Origin: Lutibacter sp. A64
Lineage (GTDB): Bacteria > Bacteroidota > Bacteroidia > Flavobacteriales > Flavobacteriaceae
Assembly (NCBI RefSeq): GCF_022429565.1
Contig: NZ_CP092487.1
Span: 3,552,001 to 3,616,000 of the forward strand
Length of the DNA: 64,000 nucleotides
Direction of reading: 5' to 3'
The translations under genes and the position numbers were made by a program. Shown in pieces: positions 47,676-56,529 of the stretch (positions within the stretch are counted from its first letter, which is position 1; each line of letters starts with the position of its first letter). The notes below the pieces were generated by a model that searched no databases, was not told the DNA's origin, and saw nothing but the letters and a program-made list of their open reading frames with translations.

Positions 47676-50024
47676 ATGCAAGATAATAAAAAAAATAGCC
47701 CTATAAATTTTAATGAGGGCACCATAAATATACGTGAAGAAATTGAGAAGTATCTTTACCATTGGAAGTGGTTTGTGTTAAGCACTTTTTTAGCGCTAGG
47801 AATTGTTTATGTTTACTTAAGATACACTCCAAATCAATATGAAGCTTCAGCAACTATTTTAATAGAAGATGTTGAAAATAACGAGCTTTCTGCATTTAAA
47901 GATTTGGGTTTAGTAGGTAGTTCGCAGGCTTCTTTAGAAAATGAAATAGAACTGTTGAAATCTAGAAGCTTAATTAGAAGGGTAGCTAAAGAGTTAAAGT
48001 TAAATGTTACTTACTACACTCAAGGAAGAGTTATTGAAGCAGAATTTATTCATAAAAGAGCTCAATTCAATATTAATTTTTTAATAAGCGATTCAGTTTT
48101 TGATAACCTAAGTACAAGTTTTTCAGTTCTTATAAAATCTAAAACGCATCTTGTTTTAAAAACTAGATTGGATGAAAAAGAGTATGCTTTTGGAGAAAAA
48201 ATTAGTTTGCCTTTTGGCGATATTATTATCACTCCAAAAGATGTAGATAAGTTAAGGGTAGGTGATGAAACAATTATTAAAATTATACCTTTAAAATCTG
48301 TTGTAGAAAGTTATAGAAATAGAATTCAAGTTGCTGTTGTAAAAAATTCTAGTGTTATTCGTTTAAGTTTAAGAGATCGAGTTAATGAGAAAGCTCAAGA
48401 GGTTTTAGATAATTTAATAGAACAATATAATGATGATGCAGTTACAGATAAGAGTTTAATAGCAAAAAGAACAAATGAATTTATTAATGATAGAATTTCA
48501 ATTATTGATGAAGATTTATCGCTAATTGAGGCAGGTGTTGAGCAGTTTAAAACAAAAAATAGGTTAACAGATATTTCTTCGGAAGCGGGAATTGCTTTGC
48601 AGTCTAAAAATGAATTGTCTAAACAAATTATAGCTTTAAGTACGCAATTAAAATTAGTAGATTTTGTAGATGAATATATTTCAGCAAATGAAGAGCAGTT
48701 AATTCCTGCGGATTTAGGTTTAGAAAATAGTTCAATTACAGAAAGTACAAATAAGTACAATGAAGTTTTATTAGAGCGCAATAGAATTTTAAAAAGTACT
48801 AGTGAATTGCACCCAACAATTGTGAATTTAAATTTACAATTAAAACAGTTTAGAGAAAATATTTCACAGAGTTTATCTAATTTAAGGTCATCTTTAACAA
48901 TTTCTTTAAACGATATAAAAAATCAAGAATATAAATTTAATTCTAAAATTGCAGCTGTACCAAAGCAAGAAAGAGAATATAGAGATATTCAAAGGCAGCA
49001 GCAAATAATAGAGTCGTTATACTTGTATTTATTACAAAAACGAGAAGAAAATGCTATTTCTTTAGCGGTTACTTTACCTAATGCAAAAATTGTTGATAAA
49101 GCGTATGGAGGTGGCTACCCAGTAGCTCCAAATCGTAGAATGTTTTATTTAGCAGCTTTATTAGCAGGCTTAGTTTTACCATTTGCTACATTGTATATAC
49201 TATTTTTATTAGATAATAAAGTACATACACGTAAGGAAGTAGAAGCCTTAGTTGATATTCCTATTTTAGGAGATATACCACAATCAAAATCAGAACAAAA
49301 AGTTATTATTTCTGATAAGGATAGAGATAGCACATCAGAATCGTTTAGGTTGTTAAGAACCAACGTTAATTTTATGCTTTCTAGTGTTAAAAAAGCTTCT
49401 AAAACAATTTTTATAACATCAACATTAGCTGGTGAAGGGAAAACATTTATTGCAATAAATTTGGCTTCGGTATTAGCGCTAACAAATAAAAAAGTATTAT
49501 TAATTGGTGGTGATATTAGAAAACCTAAAATTGTAGAATATTTAAAAATTAAATCTACAAAAAAAGGACTTTCACATTTTTTAATGGATAGTTCACTGCA
49601 AGTTCCAGATGTAATTGAGCAATTTAAAGAAACTAATTTTGATATTTTAGAATCTGGTATTGTTGCTCCAAATCCTTCAGAATTATTAATGAATGGTCGT
49701 TTTGATGAAATTTTAGCCTATGGTGAATCGCATTACGATTATGTTATTGTAGATACAGCACCTATAAATATTGTAACAGATACCTTGTTATTTAGTAAAA
49801 ATGCAGATTTATTTATTTATGTTGTTAGAGCAAATTTTTTAGATAAGCGTCTACTAGAAATTCCTAATAAATTATATAAAGATAAACGATTGCCTAATAT
49901 GGCCGCTTTAATAAACGATACCGATTTAGAAAGAGGCTATGGTTATGGATACGGCTATGGTTATGGTTATACCGAAAGAGGGTTGAAACCAAAAAAATGG
50001 TGGCAAAAAATAATGTCTTTTTAA
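47676..50024 (+). CDS. Wzc-like polysaccharide co-polymerase with tyrosine kinase domain
   Basis: A 782-residue bacterial tyrosine kinase that sets chain length and drives export. Two membrane helices (about 28-50 and 490-510) flank a Wzz domain with coiled-coil segments (about 240-460). The cytoplasmic kinase has Walker A LAGEGKT, a Walker A' variant LLIGGDIRKPK (Gly where many kinases have the first Asp) and Walker B VIVDTAP. The C-terminal tail RGYGYGYGYGYGY has six tyrosines alternating with glycine and is the likely autophosphorylation cluster. The phosphatase that would reset it is encoded next, on the opposite strand. Confidence 0.95.
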   Translation: MQDNKKNSPINFNEGTINIREEIEKYLYHWKWFVLSTFLALGIVYVYLRYTPNQYEASATILIEDVENNELSAFKDLGLVGSSQASLENEIELLKSRSLIRRVAKELKLNVTYYTQGRVIEAEFIHKRAQFNINFLISDSVFDNLSTSFSVLIKSKTHLVLKTRLDEKEYAFGEKISLPFGDIIITPKDVDKLRVGDETIIKIIPLKSVVESYRNRIQVAVVKNSSVIRLSLRDRVNEKAQEVLDNLIEQYNDDAVTDKSLIAKRTNEFINDRISIIDEDLSLIEAGVEQFKTKNRLTDISSEAGIALQSKNELSKQIIALSTQLKLVDFVDEYISANEEQLIPADLGLENSSITESTNKYNEVLLERNRILKSTSELHPTIVNLNLQLKQFRENISQSLSNLRSSLTISLNDIKNQEYKFNSKIAAVPKQEREYRDIQRQQQIIESLYLYLLQKREENAISLAVTLPNAKIVDKAYGGGYPVAPNRRMFYLAALLAGLVLPFATLYILFLLDNKVHTRKEVEALVDIPILGDIPQSKSEQKVIISDKDRDSTSESFRLLRTNVNFMLSSVKKASKTIFITSTLAGEGKTFIAINLASVLALTNKKVLLIGGDIRKPKIVEYLKIKSTKKGLSHFLMDSSLQVPDVIEQFKETNFDILESGIVAPNPSELLMNGRFDEILAYGESHYDYVIVDTAPINIVTDTLLFSKNADLFIYVVRANFLDKRLLEIPNKLYKDKRLPNMAALINDTDLERGYGYGYGYGYGYTERGLKPKKWWQKIMSF

Positions 50025-52187: not shown

Positions 52188-52426
52188 ATTAAATTTATAT
52201 TAATGCAGTGGTAAAAGCTTGTTTTAAGAATAATAATTTGTGTTTTAAGCTTCTTTCTTTTTAAAATTTTCTGAGGTATTTTTAAGTTAGGTGTGTTATA
52301 GTTTTGTAATTATTAAAAATAAGGTATCCTATTTTTTAAATGTATAATTTATGCTATTAAATATTAAATTATCAATAAGTATTGAAATTTTTTTATAAAA
52401 AAGAATGTTTTTTTAAAATTAATGTA

Positions 52427-52434
52427 TAGCTTTG
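52427..52434 (+). promoter_or_regulatory. promoter -7 box of the aromatic amino acid operon
   Basis: TAGCTTTG matches TAnnTTTG exactly. Transcription would begin near 52441, about 12 nt before the leader ATG, so the leader peptide is near the 5' end as required for attenuation. Confidence 0.6.
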
Positions 52435-52452
52435 TCGAGTATAAGAACAATT

Positions 52453-52515
52453 ATGATAACAAATAACACATTTAACAGCTTCTATTTTTACTTTTATTTT
52501 AACAATAAAGGGTGA
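52453..52515 (+). CDS. Phe/Tyr leader peptide of the pheA operon attenuator
   Basis: A 20-codon frame from ATG 52453 to TGA 52513-52515. Residues 7-16 read FNSFYFYFYF, so five Phe and three Tyr codons lie in ten positions, including the unbroken run FYFYFYF at 52480-52500. The downstream operon makes precisely Phe and Tyr. A ribosome stalled on this run for lack of charged tRNA would leave the antiterminator arm (from 52513) free; one that reaches the stop codon would cover it. This is the classical attenuation design. The peptide itself needs no further function. Confidence 0.88.
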   Translation: MITNNTFNSFYFYFYFNNKG

Positions 52516-52560
52516 GGCTTTGTATGTGTTGATTAACAAAATATAAATTATAGAGTCTCG
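52513..52560 (+). promoter_or_regulatory. antiterminator hairpin of the Phe/Tyr attenuator
   Basis: Bases 52513-52524 (TGAGGCTTTGTA) pair with 52549-52560 (TTATAGAGTCTCG region) over 12 consecutive positions, four of them G-U. The 5' arm starts at the leader stop codon. The 3' arm takes up the first five bases of the terminator stem, so the two hairpins exclude each other. Confidence 0.75.
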
Positions 52561-52583
52561 AAATTATTTCGGGATTTTTTTTT
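52556..52583 (+). terminator. attenuator terminator upstream of pheA
   Basis: The stem TCTCGAAA (52556-52563) / TTTCGGGA (52567-52574), 8 bp with one G-U, has the loop TTA and is followed by nine T residues. It ends 17 nt before the pheA start codon and follows the leader peptide, which fits premature termination when Phe and Tyr are plentiful. Confidence 0.9.
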
Positions 52584-52599
52584 GAATAAAAATTAAAAA

Positions 52600-53418
52600 A
52601 TGAAAGTAGCAATTCAAGGTATAAAAGGGTCTTTTCACCACATTGTGGCACAACAATATTTTGGAGAAAACATAGATTTATTAGAGTGTTTATCTTTTTC
52701 TGAGATGCCAAACCTTTTATTAGATAAAAAGGCAGATGTCTTAATTATGGCAATCGAGAATTCTATAGCTGGGGCAATATTGCCTAATTACGCTTTAATT
52801 GATGATTTTCAATTAAATATTTGTGGTGAGTTTCATTTACCAATTAATCATAATTTAATGGGATTGAAAGATCAAAATATTGAAGATATTAAAGAAGTAT
52901 ATTCACATCCTATGGCACTATTACAGTGTCATAATTTTTTTAAAGACTACCCGCATATAAAACTTATAGAAGATAAGGATACGGCTTCGGTAGCTAAAAG
53001 AATTGCAGAAAATAACTTAAAAGGAGTTGGAGCCATTGCAAGTACACTAGCTGCAGAAATATATAATTTAGATATTATTGCTGAAAACATTCAAACCATT
53101 AAAGAAAATGCTACACGTTTTTTTATTTTAAATAATAATAAAGATAAAAGCAGTGTTTCAGCAAACAAAGCTTCAATAAAATTTATAACAAGTAATGATA
53201 CTGGTAGTTTGGCAGAAGTGCTTTCTATTTTAGCAAAACACAATTTAAATATGTCTAAAATACAATCTATGCCAGTTATAAACACCCCTTGGAAATATGC
53301 TTTTTTCGCTGATTTTATTTTTAAAAGTTATGCCGATTATTTTGATGCAATAGATGAAATTAAAGAAAAAGTAGAAATAGTAAAAATTTTAGGAGAATAC
53401 ACAAAAGGTAAAAGATAA
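52600..53418 (+). CDS. pheA: prephenate dehydratase
   Basis: Converts prephenate to phenylpyruvate, the committed step to phenylalanine. The 272 residues hold the catalytic dehydratase domain (about 1-180: VAIQGIKGSFHHIVAQQYF, ADVLIMAIENSIAG, and the TRF motif NATRFFIL with Thr172) and a C-terminal ACT domain (IKFITSNDTGSLAEVLSILAKHNLNMSKIQSMPV) for allosteric control, where the Phe-binding ESRP of other enzymes reads QSMP. There is no fused chorismate mutase; that activity is on the fourth gene. The stop overlaps the next start as TAATG. Confidence 0.96.
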   Translation: MKVAIQGIKGSFHHIVAQQYFGENIDLLECLSFSEMPNLLLDKKADVLIMAIENSIAGAILPNYALIDDFQLNICGEFHLPINHNLMGLKDQNIEDIKEVYSHPMALLQCHNFFKDYPHIKLIEDKDTASVAKRIAENNLKGVGAIASTLAAEIYNLDIIAENIQTIKENATRFFILNNNKDKSSVSANKASIKFITSNDTGSLAEVLSILAKHNLNMSKIQSMPVINTPWKYAFFADFIFKSYADYFDAIDEIKEKVEIVKILGEYTKGKR

Positions 53419-54575
53419 TGATACAAAAAGCTGATAGATTAAACGATGTAAAAGAATACTACTTCTCAAAAAAATTGAGAGAGGTAGCGGCTTTAAGAAA
53501 TGAGGGGAAACCAATAATAAATATAGCAATTGGAAGCCCAGATTTAGCGCCGTCAAATAGTGTAATAGCAGCAATTCAAAACGCTGTAACGTTACCAAAT
53601 GCACATCAATATCAAAGTTATCAAGGAATTCCAGAATTAAGAAGTGGAATTGCCGATTTTTATAAAGAAAACTACAATGTTACCTTAAATTCAGCTACAG
53701 AAATTCTTCCTTTAATGGGGTCAAAAGAAGGAATTATGCATATTTCTATGGCTTTTTTAAATAAAGGAGATAAGGTGTTGATACCAAACCCTGGTTATCC
53801 AACCTATGCTTCAGTTACAAATTTGGTTGAAGCTGAGCCAATTTTATACAAATTAAATGAAGCTACTAATTGGTTGCCTAATTTTAAAGAATTAGAACAA
53901 CAAGATTTATCAAATGTTAAAATTATGTGGATTAATTATCCGCATATGCCAACAGGTGCTGTTGCTTCAAAAGAAGATTTTAAAGAATTGATAGCTTTTG
54001 CTAAAAAGCATCAAATTTTAATAGTAAACGATAATCCGTATAGCTTTATTTTAAATGAAAATCCGCTTAGTATTTTAGAAATAGAAGGAGCTAAAGAAGT
54101 TGCAATTGAGTTAAATTCTTTAAGTAAAACCTTTAATATGGCAGGTTGGAGAGTAGGTATGGTTGTAGGAGATGCCGAAATTATTAAAACAATATTACAA
54201 GTAAAAAGTAATATGGATTCTGGAATGTTTTTTGGAATTCAAAAAGGAGCTGTAGAAGCATTTAAATTGTCTTCAGATTGGTTTAAAGCCCAAAACGAAA
54301 TTTATAAAAGAAGAAGAGCTATTGTTTGGCAAATTTTTGATGCGCTTAATTGTACTTATAATAAAAATATTGGAGGTTTGTTTGTATGGGCAAAATTACC
54401 AGAAGGTATAAAATCTGAAGATGTTACAGATGATTTACTGTATAATAAAAATGTATTTATAACCCCTGGAACTGTTTTTGGTTCTAATGGAGCTGGTTAT
54501 TTAAGAGCATCATTATGTGTTTCAGAAGAGGTGCTTGAAGAAGTGTTAGATAGAATAATTACTGTAAATGTGTAA
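53418..54575 (+). CDS. class I/II aminotransferase, aromatic amino acid type
   Basis: A 385-residue PLP aminotransferase of fold type I. It has NIAIGSPDLAPS near the N-terminus, NPGYPTYASV, the PLP-binding NDNPYSFI and the Schiff-base Lys in SLSKTFNMAGWRVGM. The position between pheA and tyrA indicates that it transaminates phenylpyruvate and 4-hydroxyphenylpyruvate, or prephenate, in the final steps. The start codon overlaps the pheA stop by one base, and tyrA starts 2 nt after its stop, so translation is coupled. Confidence 0.92.
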   Translation: MIQKADRLNDVKEYYFSKKLREVAALRNEGKPIINIAIGSPDLAPSNSVIAAIQNAVTLPNAHQYQSYQGIPELRSGIADFYKENYNVTLNSATEILPLMGSKEGIMHISMAFLNKGDKVLIPNPGYPTYASVTNLVEAEPILYKLNEATNWLPNFKELEQQDLSNVKIMWINYPHMPTGAVASKEDFKELIAFAKKHQILIVNDNPYSFILNENPLSILEIEGAKEVAIELNSLSKTFNMAGWRVGMVVGDAEIIKTILQVKSNMDSGMFFGIQKGAVEAFKLSSDWFKAQNEIYKRRRAIVWQIFDALNCTYNKNIGGLFVWAKLPEGIKSEDVTDDLLYNKNVFITPGTVFGSNGAGYLRASLCVSEEVLEEVLDRIITVNV

Positions 54576-54576
54576 C

Positions 54577-55434
54577 ATGGAAAAATTAGTAGTTATTGGT
54601 TTAGGTTTAATAGGTGGTTCCTTAGCATTAGATTTAAAAAAGAGAGGAAATTATAAAGTCTATGGAGTTGATCAAAACCCAGAGCACATAAAAAAAGCAC
54701 TAGAACTAGGTATAATTGATGAAGAAATTAGTCTTTCTGAAGTTGCAGATGCAGCTGTAGTAATTATATCAGTACCAGTTAATATTATAGCAAATATTAC
54801 AAAACAAGTATTGGATATTGTATCTGATAAAACCTTGGTTTTTGATGTTGGTTCGGTAAAAAATAATATTTGTAAGGCGGTAGAAAACCATAAAAACCGT
54901 AAAAACTTTGTAGCAGCGCATCCGCTTGCAGGTACAGAATTTTCGGGGCCACAAGCAGCAATTTTAAATCTATTCGATCATAAAGTAAATATTATTTGTG
55001 AAGCTGATAAAACAGATTGGAAAATTTTAGACAAAGCAATAAGCTTATTTAAACTGTTAGATATGCGTATTAAAATGATGCAGCCAGTAGAACACGATAG
55101 GCATATTGCGTATGTTTCTCACTTGTCTCATATCAGTTCTTTTATGTTAGGGAAAACAGTATTGCAAATTGAAAAAAATGAACAGGCAATTTTTGATATG
55201 GCAAGTACAGGTTTTGCATCTACAGTGCGTTTAGCAAAAAGTAATGCTGATACTTGGGCTCCAATTTTTTTAGAAAATAAAGAAAATGTTATAAGATCTC
55301 TTGATGAGTATATTAAAAATTTGAGTGAATTTAAAACTCTAATTGAAAATGCAGATGATAATGGTTTAAGAGTAATTATGAAAGACACAAATTATATAAA
55401 ATCAATTTTAAACGGAATTAAAGAAAACGACTAA
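54577..55434 (+). CDS. tyrA: prephenate dehydrogenase
   Basis: Oxidatively decarboxylates prephenate to 4-hydroxyphenylpyruvate for tyrosine. The 285 residues comprise an N-terminal Rossmann domain (VVIGLGLIGGSLALDLKKRG), DVGSVKNNICKAVE, the active-site HPLAGTEFSGP and a helical dimerisation domain (HDRHIAYVSHLSHISSFML). The chosen ATG 54577 begins right after the aminotransferase stop. An ATG at 54568 would add three residues (MCN) and overlap that stop, so it is less likely but possible. Confidence 0.95.
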   Translation: MEKLVVIGLGLIGGSLALDLKKRGNYKVYGVDQNPEHIKKALELGIIDEEISLSEVADAAVVIISVPVNIIANITKQVLDIVSDKTLVFDVGSVKNNICKAVENHKNRKNFVAAHPLAGTEFSGPQAAILNLFDHKVNIICEADKTDWKILDKAISLFKLLDMRIKMMQPVEHDRHIAYVSHLSHISSFMLGKTVLQIEKNEQAIFDMASTGFASTVRLAKSNADTWAPIFLENKENVIRSLDEYIKNLSEFKTLIENADDNGLRVIMKDTNYIKSILNGIKEND

Positions 55435-55452: not shown

Positions 55453-56529
55453 ATGGAAATTACAAAAGAAAACAGAAAGTGGTTAGATAGCATGGGCTTA
55501 GATCATCCAATTGTTATTGCAGGACCTTGTAGTGCTGAAACTGAAGAACAAGTTTTAAAAACTGCTCATTTATTAAAAGATACAGATACAAACGTGTTTA
55601 GAGCTGGTATTTGGAAACCAAGAACAAGACCAGGTGGTTTTGAAGGTGTAGGAGGAATAGGTTTGCCATGGTTACAACGCGTTCGTGAAGAAACAGGAAT
55701 GAAAATTACTACTGAAGTTGGTAATGCAAATCACGTAGAATTAGCTTTAAAAGCTGATGTGGATATTTTGTGGATTGGAGCTAGAACTACTGTAAATCCT
55801 TTTGCTGTTCAAGAAATTGCAGATGCTTTAAAAGGTGTAGATAAGCCAGTTTTAGTTAAAAACCCGGTAAATCCAGATTTAGCATTATGGTTAGGTGGTG
55901 TAGAACGTTTTCAAGCAAATGGAATTTCACAATTAGGTGTAATTCACCGTGGGTTCTCGGCATACAATACTGGTCATTACAGAAATAAACCAAAATGGCA
56001 TATTGCAATTGAATTGAAAAAAGAATTCCCAGATTTACCTTTAATTTTAGATCCATCTCATATTTGTGGACGTAGAGATACTATTTTAGATGTTTCTCAA
56101 ACAGCTTTAGATTTAAATTTTGATGGTTTAATGGTTGAAACACATATTGATCCAGATAATGCTTGGAGTGATGCTGCACAACAAATTACACCAGCAAGAT
56201 TGGATGAAATTACTAAAGAATTAAAAATTCGTCAAAAAAGTAGTTCTAAAGAAAGTTTCCAAAGCAAATTAAATTTATACCGTAAAGAGTTAGATTTAAT
56301 AGATGGTAATATTATTGATATTTTAAGTGATAGAATGGCAGTTGCTGGAGAAATTGGAAAATTAAAGCATAAAGAAAATGTAGCAATTTTACAAAGTGGA
56401 AGATGGTCAGATATTTTATCAGCTATGATAGAAACTGGAAAAAGTAAAGGTTTAAGTACAGAATTTGTAGAAGAAGTATTTAAAGCAATACATGTTGAGT
56501 CAATAAATATTCAACGTAACATAAAATAA
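55453..56529 (+). CDS. aroG: bifunctional DAHP synthase / chorismate mutase
   Basis: Catalyses the entry step of the shikimate pathway and the conversion of chorismate to prephenate. The N-terminal KDO8P/DAHP synthase-like domain (about 1-265) has VIAGPCSAET, FRAGIWKPRTRPGGFEG, VLVKNPVNPD and LDPSHICGRRD. The C-terminal AroQ-type chorismate mutase (about 275-358) has LNLYRKELDLIDGNIIDILSDRMAVAGEIGKLKHKENVAI. The fusion is common in Bacteroidota. As the last gene of the operon it places both branch-point activities under the Phe/Tyr attenuator. The symbol follows common use for this fusion. Confidence 0.94.
   Translation: MEITKENRKWLDSMGLDHPIVIAGPCSAETEEQVLKTAHLLKDTDTNVFRAGIWKPRTRPGGFEGVGGIGLPWLQRVREETGMKITTEVGNANHVELALKADVDILWIGARTTVNPFAVQEIADALKGVDKPVLVKNPVNPDLALWLGGVERFQANGISQLGVIHRGFSAYNTGHYRNKPKWHIAIELKKEFPDLPLILDPSHICGRRDTILDVSQTALDLNFDGLMVETHIDPDNAWSDAAQQITPARLDEITKELKIRQKSSSKESFQSKLNLYRKELDLIDGNIIDILSDRMAVAGEIGKLKHKENVAILQSGRWSDILSAMIETGKSKGLSTEFVEEVFKAIHVESINIQRNIK

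Follow-up and report, generated by a model that had tools for sequence, protein, structure and literature searches.

Upstream of an aromatic amino acid operon in Lutibacter sp. A64, seven codons for phenylalanine and tyrosine alternate strictly (TTC TAT TTT TAC TTT TAT TTT, positions 52480-52500). What would such a run sense, and does the alternation itself matter? A preliminary description of the locus had presented the run as a two-amino-acid "AND/OR" leader-peptide sensor, with strict alternation as its key feature. Positions given here are those of the window, i.e. the whole analysed stretch of 64,000 nucleotides (contig NZ_CP092487.1, 3,552,001 to 3,616,000), and the leader, the RNA switch and the operon lie on its forward strand.

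The leader, its operon and the predicted RNA switch

The run is present as described and lies in frame within a short open reading frame (ORF), followed by a terminator and an aromatic operon. The leader ORF (52453-52515, 20 codons from ATG to TGA) encodes MITNNTFNSFYFYFYFNNKG; besides the run FYFYFYF it holds an upstream aromatic codon, Phe TTT at 52471-52473. The degenerate pattern TTY TAY TTY TAY TTY TAY TTY matches once in the window, never in 100 dinucleotide shuffles of it, and once in the whole genome of 4,028,615 bases. A box resembling a promoter -7 element, TAGCTTTG (52427-52434), ends 18 nt before the leader ATG; it was recognized by TAnnTTTG, which we take to be the Bacteroidota -7 consensus. 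Among 182 leaders, 75 have the same motif no more than 55 nt ahead of the start codon, where shuffles give 9.8 as the expected number. A sigma-70 promoter scan of the window gave no excess.

The leader ORF sits between the promoter-like box and the terminator, ahead of four genes. They encode prephenate dehydratase (PDT, 52600-53418; Pfam PF00800, 192.2 bits, with an ACT-domain match slightly under the cut-off), a class I/II aminotransferase (AT, 53418-54575; PF00155, 206.3 bits), the prephenate dehydrogenase TyrA (54568-55434; PF02153 and PF20463) and a fused DAHP synthase - chorismate mutase (DAHPS/CM, 55453-56529; PF00793 and PF01817). The last is the sole DAHP synthase found in searches of the genome, where the second match shared 28% identity across 243 residues and a type II enzyme was not found. 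A short, translated-looking ORF with regulatory codons is thus placed shortly upstream of a biosynthetic operon, as in attenuators. Elsewhere in the window (47676-50024), a large protein, presumably of the exopolysaccharide-type tyrosine-kinase-like kind, ends in a YGYGYGYGYGY tail.

The leader region folds better than its own shuffles (z -3.64), and the fold consists of a hairpin between regions 1 and 2 followed by the terminator. Region 1 (52464-52482) is the 5´ arm of the 1:2 hairpin and pairs with 52514-52531. The apical stem of this hairpin (52491-52511, formed by 52491-52498 with 52504-52511) is made from the aromatic codons together with those that follow. Region 2 (52513-52530), delimited by ribosome-position folding, overlaps the leader stop codon and is also the 5´ arm of an antiterminator, whose 3´ arm, region 3 (52540-52560, comprising 52540-52545 and 52549-52560), is supported by folding and co-evolution. 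Region 3 overlaps the 5´ arm of the intrinsic terminator, a 12-bp stem (52552-52578) with a U-run (to 52583). A terminator scan found it, one against 0.0 expected, between the leader and the first gene, and a terminator recurs at this place in relatives.

The pairing was then followed along the leader in a folding model of the transcript made before the second arm of the terminator. The ribosome footprint was represented by masking all RNA as far as 12 nt beyond the first nucleotide in the A site. With the A site anywhere up to 52501, the model gives full pairing of regions 2 and 3 (9 pairs, probability 0.96-1.00); 6 pairs are left at 52504 and none from 52507 to the stop codon. Antiterminator formation, exclusive of the terminator, is thus set by ribosome position in silico. 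The aromatic run ends one codon short of the modelled switch boundary, and every aromatic codon of the run falls within the zone where a stalled ribosome frees the antiterminator. Wherever in the run a ribosome stalled, on Phe or on Tyr, read-through would therefore be permitted, and completion of the leader would forbid it. In favour of an attenuator, the antiterminator is predicted to be stronger than the terminator (-14.5 vs -10.2 kcal/mol). One property of the model counts against it: RNA made up to region 3 prefers the antiterminator in the absence of a ribosome too. Low basal read-through would hence depend on the 1:2 hairpin forming first.

We suggest that the element is, very probably, a ribosome-mediated transcription attenuator that senses several aromatic amino acids and gates the DAHPS/CM operon. 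A ribosome would translate the leader, trailing RNA polymerase. Should charging of tRNA-Phe or tRNA-Tyr fall short, it would wait on the aromatic run; shortage of charged tRNA-Trp would likewise stall it in relatives that carry a Trp codon. The stalled ribosome would mask region 1 and leave region 2 free for region 3, no terminator would form and the operon would be transcribed. When all aromatic amino acids are plentiful, the ribosome would run to the stop codon and, as this overlaps region 2, block the antiterminator; the terminator would form and transcription would end. Because any single shortage would suffice, the operon should respond in vivo to each of the amino acids, and the earlier "AND/OR" is best put as an OR of shortages.

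Leaders across Bacteroidota and the order of Phe and Tyr

Among 37 Lutibacter genomes searched, 35 have a PDT gene and two do not, and the leader is present in all 35. FYFYFYF is exact in 32 of them; the others have FFFYFYF (twice) and FCFYFYF (once). The run is also kept at the DNA level (24 of the 32 are identical and 8 carry one silent change), so that constraints on RNA and on codons are inseparable inside the genus. In our genome the codon three before the run encodes Phe; of the 35 genomes, 28 have Trp TGG there, 5 have Phe and 1 has Tyr, and in one leader (L231), which carries an in-frame 3-nt deletion, the spacing is shorter. In seven loci (L012, L015-L018, L023 and L029), the gap between terminator and PDT holds one or two copies of similar short stretches of the GCGCATTCC...GAGGAC type.

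Beyond the genus, we took 110 of 277 PDT-matching Flavobacteriaceae genomes from among the best-scoring matches (107 besides three of Lutibacter, whose remaining 32 loci were those of the genus search, outside the 110) and, for the class, one or a few genomes per family chosen from 121 with a PDT match. The counts leave out six repeat loci (L233-L238) as well as L059-L138; of the latter, L090-L138 were read by eye and L059-L089 largely repeat Lutibacter genomes. Operons are covered in part where the contig is cut short, as in L275, L270 and the short loci of family f53. Searching for aromatic-dense ORFs with a terminator behind them, we found a leader at 183 of 200 PDT loci and detected none in front of PDT at the other 17; the loci come from 34 GTDB families, and the leaders from 25. 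Genomes fetched afterwards had it in 18 of 19 cases (a twentieth later locus, L383, repeats L307).

Every one of the 183 leaders starts with ATG, and 182 contain both Phe and Tyr. In 181 of the 182 leaders with a clear antiterminator, codons for both amino acids lie in the stall zone; one leader (L026) is missing from this alignment, as its contig begins near the leader. Of 141 Flavobacteriaceae leaders, 97 carry Trp within the core or ahead of it, against 11 of 42 elsewhere. A multi-amino-acid leader is distinguished by a stall zone whose codons stand for several end products. Phe and Tyr occur in almost all of the leaders and Trp in many, so that the sequences lend good support to an OR-type sensor of several aromatic amino acids. 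The earlier proposal of an attenuator derepressed by either a Phe or a Tyr shortage therefore holds up in its substance. "Two-amino-acid" is too narrow, however, since it overlooked Trp, which would be the third amino acid sensed in most Flavobacteriaceae leaders.

The predicted switch is conserved as well. The antiterminator arms differ from family to family and yet stay complementary by eye (GAGGC.../GTCTC, CCGGGACT/AGTCCCGG, GCGGGA/TCCCGC and GGCGGTC/GACCGC). For 25 family representatives, the duplex energies sum to -297.6. Exchanging arms among families gives -200.5 +- 11.3, and 0 of 20,000 permutations reach the native value; on this comparison the arms co-evolve across families. The same holds for 1:2 pairing (-409.1 vs -312.5 +- 15.0; 0 of 20,000), and support for the apical stem across families is modest (156 of 20,000 permutations as good). 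The geometry is also constant: from the start of the last aromatic codon to region 2 the median distance is 13 nt (5th-95th percentile 8-15; n=182), and in 182 of 182 leaders region 2 lies inside the ORF or would be hidden beneath a ribosome that has reached the stop codon.

Conserved pairing would also be expected of an untranslated RNA switch, or of a T-box-like element, in which the ORF is incidental. We consider this extremely unlikely, given the ATG of all 183 leaders, the L231 deletion that stays in frame, the in-frame loss of TTR and retention of TGG, and the lack of an Rfam T-box match (none at the gathering threshold in the window and none below it in 52380-52640). Core codons amount to 734 TTY vs 1 TTR and 79 TGG vs 4 other TGN, with no TAR, counts that are inflated because the cores were picked for aromatic density; even so they provide evidence for selection on the leader at the amino-acid level.

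A second possibility is an arrest peptide: the nascent aromatic peptide might stall the ribosome in response to a free aromatic metabolite and not to uncharged tRNA, in the way TnaC-like peptides sense free Trp. The sequence is compatible with it. Arrest peptides, however, are not so variable in residue order and spacing, and here both vary, only aromatic content being conserved (FYFYFYF, YFYGYYFYF, FFYFFYFF and YYFFFYFF), while the tight constant is the distance from codon to region 2. An arrest peptide thus appears very unlikely, if less so than an untranslated switch.

The leader might, thirdly, be mainly a Phe sensor, with Tyr codons as near-neutral passengers kept as TAT and TAC suit the U-rich stem. 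The codons nearest to region 2 are indeed often Phe (FFF in many Flavobacteriaceae), and one locus (L225) has three leaders with Phe only. But only one of the 183 leaders, which come from 25 families, lacks Tyr, and leaders before a lone DAHPS/CM gene have it as well; the same cores, picked for aromatic density, have no TAR and one TTR. We regard it as improbable that Tyr is a passenger, and keep to the attenuator sensing several aromatic amino acids.

What remains of the alternation? It may be supposed that alternation was selected so that the stall site is almost identical for either shortage. The 32 exact Lutibacter runs speak for it, and alternating runs of at least 6 recur in single leaders of families f17, f46, f49 and f69 and of one other genus of Flavobacteriaceae (f1). 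When F and Y were shuffled within each leader, however, the number of such runs was near the permuted one (4 vs 1.98; 1 vs 1.19). The number of switches between F and Y showed no excess in Flavobacteriaceae outside Lutibacter (270 vs 278.2 +- 10.0 after permutation), and with one leader per family it was 93.5 vs 88.3 +- 5.8. Outside Flavobacteriaceae there is a mild excess (234 vs 210.2 +- 8.9, P 0.0055), which falls to 174 vs 165.7 +- 8.3 (P 0.18) without f53 and f46, families that contribute many near relatives to the count. Nor are the last Phe and last Tyr codons closer than in random order, which was as close or closer with P 0.98. It is accordingly the mixing of F and Y that is conserved, judging from these leaders, and strict alternation is not. 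With order close to random outside Lutibacter, alternation fails both as the key feature it had been taken for and as a widely applying adaptation, and its selection for stalling at a single site is unlikely. FYFYFYF would be one fixed Lutibacter arrangement, perhaps held by the stem that shares the run.

DAHPS/CM, tyrA and putative attenuators in series

Which gene does the leader belong to? Outside Flavobacteriaceae, it precedes PDT in 41 of 49 loci with a downstream DAHPS/CM gene (none was detected before PDT in the other 8), vs 0 of 7 loci without one (Fisher P 2.8e-5, a value that ignores relatedness). In the rearranged operons of Lunatimonas and Cyclobacterium (L095-L098, 4 of 4), DAHPS/CM comes first and the leader (MKNFAATYFSFFYFYF...) stands before it. 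We further searched for DAHPS in 17 genomes chosen for absence of a leader at PDT, and five of them (G442, G614, G630, G694 and G377) have one before DAHPS/CM; in the other 12, the search found it at neither PDT nor DAHPS. Such loci and genomes where no leader was detected count against the proposed attenuator. Two genomes with a loose aromatic ORF before DAHPS and no terminator by eye (G040, G053) were not counted. In total, nine genomes lacking the leader at PDT carry it at DAHPS/CM (L095-L098, L344, L346, L347, L350 and L351 are the loci with rearranged operons of this kind; L095-L098 are those named above). When PDT and DAHPS/CM are apart, the leader thus goes with DAHPS/CM. The codon content of the leaders agrees with this, as Phe, Tyr and Trp all depend on DAHP synthase, and the chorismate mutase fused to it opens the way to Phe and Tyr.

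The preliminary description had predicted that Tyr codons would be lost where the operon lacks tyrA. In six families (f18, f28, f35, f50, f53 and f57) the operon holds PDT and DAHPS/CM without tyrA, and the leaders keep Tyr. For example, the Mucilaginibacter operon PDT-DAHPS/CM-AroA-AroC retains it in the leader MKFNSAYFYGYYFYFTSKSRD. One family, f13, loses it: the L225 operon PDT-AT-DAHPS/CM has Phe-only leaders. Since six families keep Tyr and one loses it, the prediction is mostly refuted by the comparison, although the predicted direction can occur, and we rejected the idea that Tyr codons track tyrA in the operon.

Could a distant gene explain the kept codons? A tyrA gene (PDH_N) was found elsewhere in G367, G357, G704 and G392; apart from the operon, PDH_N was not found in G634, G508, G455, G432 and G059, and G458 gave a weak match. 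An aromatic hydroxylase that makes Tyr from Phe (PF00351) was found in G508, G455, G432, G059 and G662, as split matches in proteins of about 600 amino acids in G458, G392 and G357, and not in G634, G704 and G367. Neither gene settles the matter: f13 has the hydroxylase, no TyrA was found there and its leaders are Phe-only, yet Tyr is kept in f50 and f57 with the same gene content, and also in f35, where neither tyrA elsewhere nor hydroxylase was found.

Several leader-terminator units may also stand in series upstream of PDT. More than one unit was found at 4 of 199 loci (three units in L225/G059; two each in L296/G455, L300/G662 and L303/G483) and in 2 of the 19 later genomes (L365/G519 and L380/G618), altogether six genomes of five families, vs 0 of 102 in shuffled sequence. 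The nine units of the first four loci each have their own antiterminator (-9.0 to -20.8 kcal/mol). Two or three such units in a row would steepen the gating, or combine several OR gates by an AND. Beside the Phe-only triple attenuator of L225, the PDT gene (L225:695-1249) encodes 185 amino acids with no ACT-domain match; the feedback domain is absent where attenuation is multiplied.

Putting these results together, we lean slightly towards a broader view. The leader would be a class-wide element of Bacteroidota, absent from Rfam, which stays with DAHPS/CM and whose codons follow the reach of this enzyme (Phe and Tyr almost always, Trp optional) and not the neighbouring genes, with serial units acting as a steeper gate or an AND of ORs. 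If this is true, one RNA element explains control of pathway entry across much of the class, a matter that seems little described for aromatic amino acid synthesis in Bacteroidota. It would then also be a candidate Rfam family, and it would offer a natural series (Phe-only, Phe+Tyr and Phe+Tyr+Trp, in one to three units) for relating codon content to response.

Relation to known attenuators

At the gathering threshold, Rfam gave one match in the whole window, a tRNA elsewhere. Two leader families were considered and rejected: Phe_leader (RF01859) scored 20.6 bits (E 0.29) against a gathering threshold of 55 bits, and Trp_leader (RF00513) 17.1 bits against 41 bits.

The pheA and pheST leaders of E. 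coli combine a Phe-rich leader ORF with an antiterminator/terminator switch and a downstream PDT gene. The Lutibacter element shares the Phe-rich ORF, the switch and the PDT gene behind it with the pheA leader. The latter, however, is essentially a Phe leader, whereas in the Bacteroidota element Tyr is nearly universal, Trp is frequent and the leader tracks DAHPS/CM. In its logic, the element is closer to the enterobacterial multi-amino-acid leaders thrL (Thr and Ile) and ilvL/ilvB (Leu, Val and Ile), which provide OR-type derepression of a branched pathway. One leader would serve the same OR logic here, with aromatic codons, in another phylum and at the shikimate entry enzyme. The mechanism is textbook-like; it is the multi-amino-acid aromatic version that seems new.

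Our literature search, whose coverage mostly excludes subscription journals, turned up two hints that bear on the element and nothing that describes its peptide. Firstly, in Flavobacterium psychrophilum, a transcriptome study reports indications of attenuation by leader peptides upstream of amino-acid operons, and a structured 5´ element before pheA that is conserved in other Flavobacteriaceae genera and has no Rfam match (PMC9723704). The relevant sections of that study do not give a peptide, its amino acids, a switch or a spread beyond the family (PMC9723704); we infer that its pheA element is the same as ours. Secondly, Table 7 of a 2005 paper, drawing on a predicted-attenuator database, lists a putative attenuator for the Bacteroides thetaiotaomicron operon pheA > hisHb > aroAIbeta-aroQ > tyrA, an operon of the same kind, also in Bacteroidota, and the table row names neither a leader peptide nor a sensed amino acid (PMC1173090). 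The main text of a 2010 attenuator survey does not contain the words "Bacteroid", "Flavobacter", "pheA" or "aromatic" (PMC2965389), and for the Phe or Tyr operons of Actinobacteria, the relevant part of another study reports that a structure of this kind was not found (PMC1262725).

The Lutibacter genome itself (G000) holds another leader of this type. Before trpE (L310:1318-1371), an ORF encoding MKQNTLNNNWWWNSLSN with WWW is followed by a hairpin and a T-run, as read by eye. From this arrangement, the organism appears to make use of leader-peptide attenuation. Both leaders have a short ORF, a hairpin and a T-run, and the trp one would differ in sensing a single amino acid.
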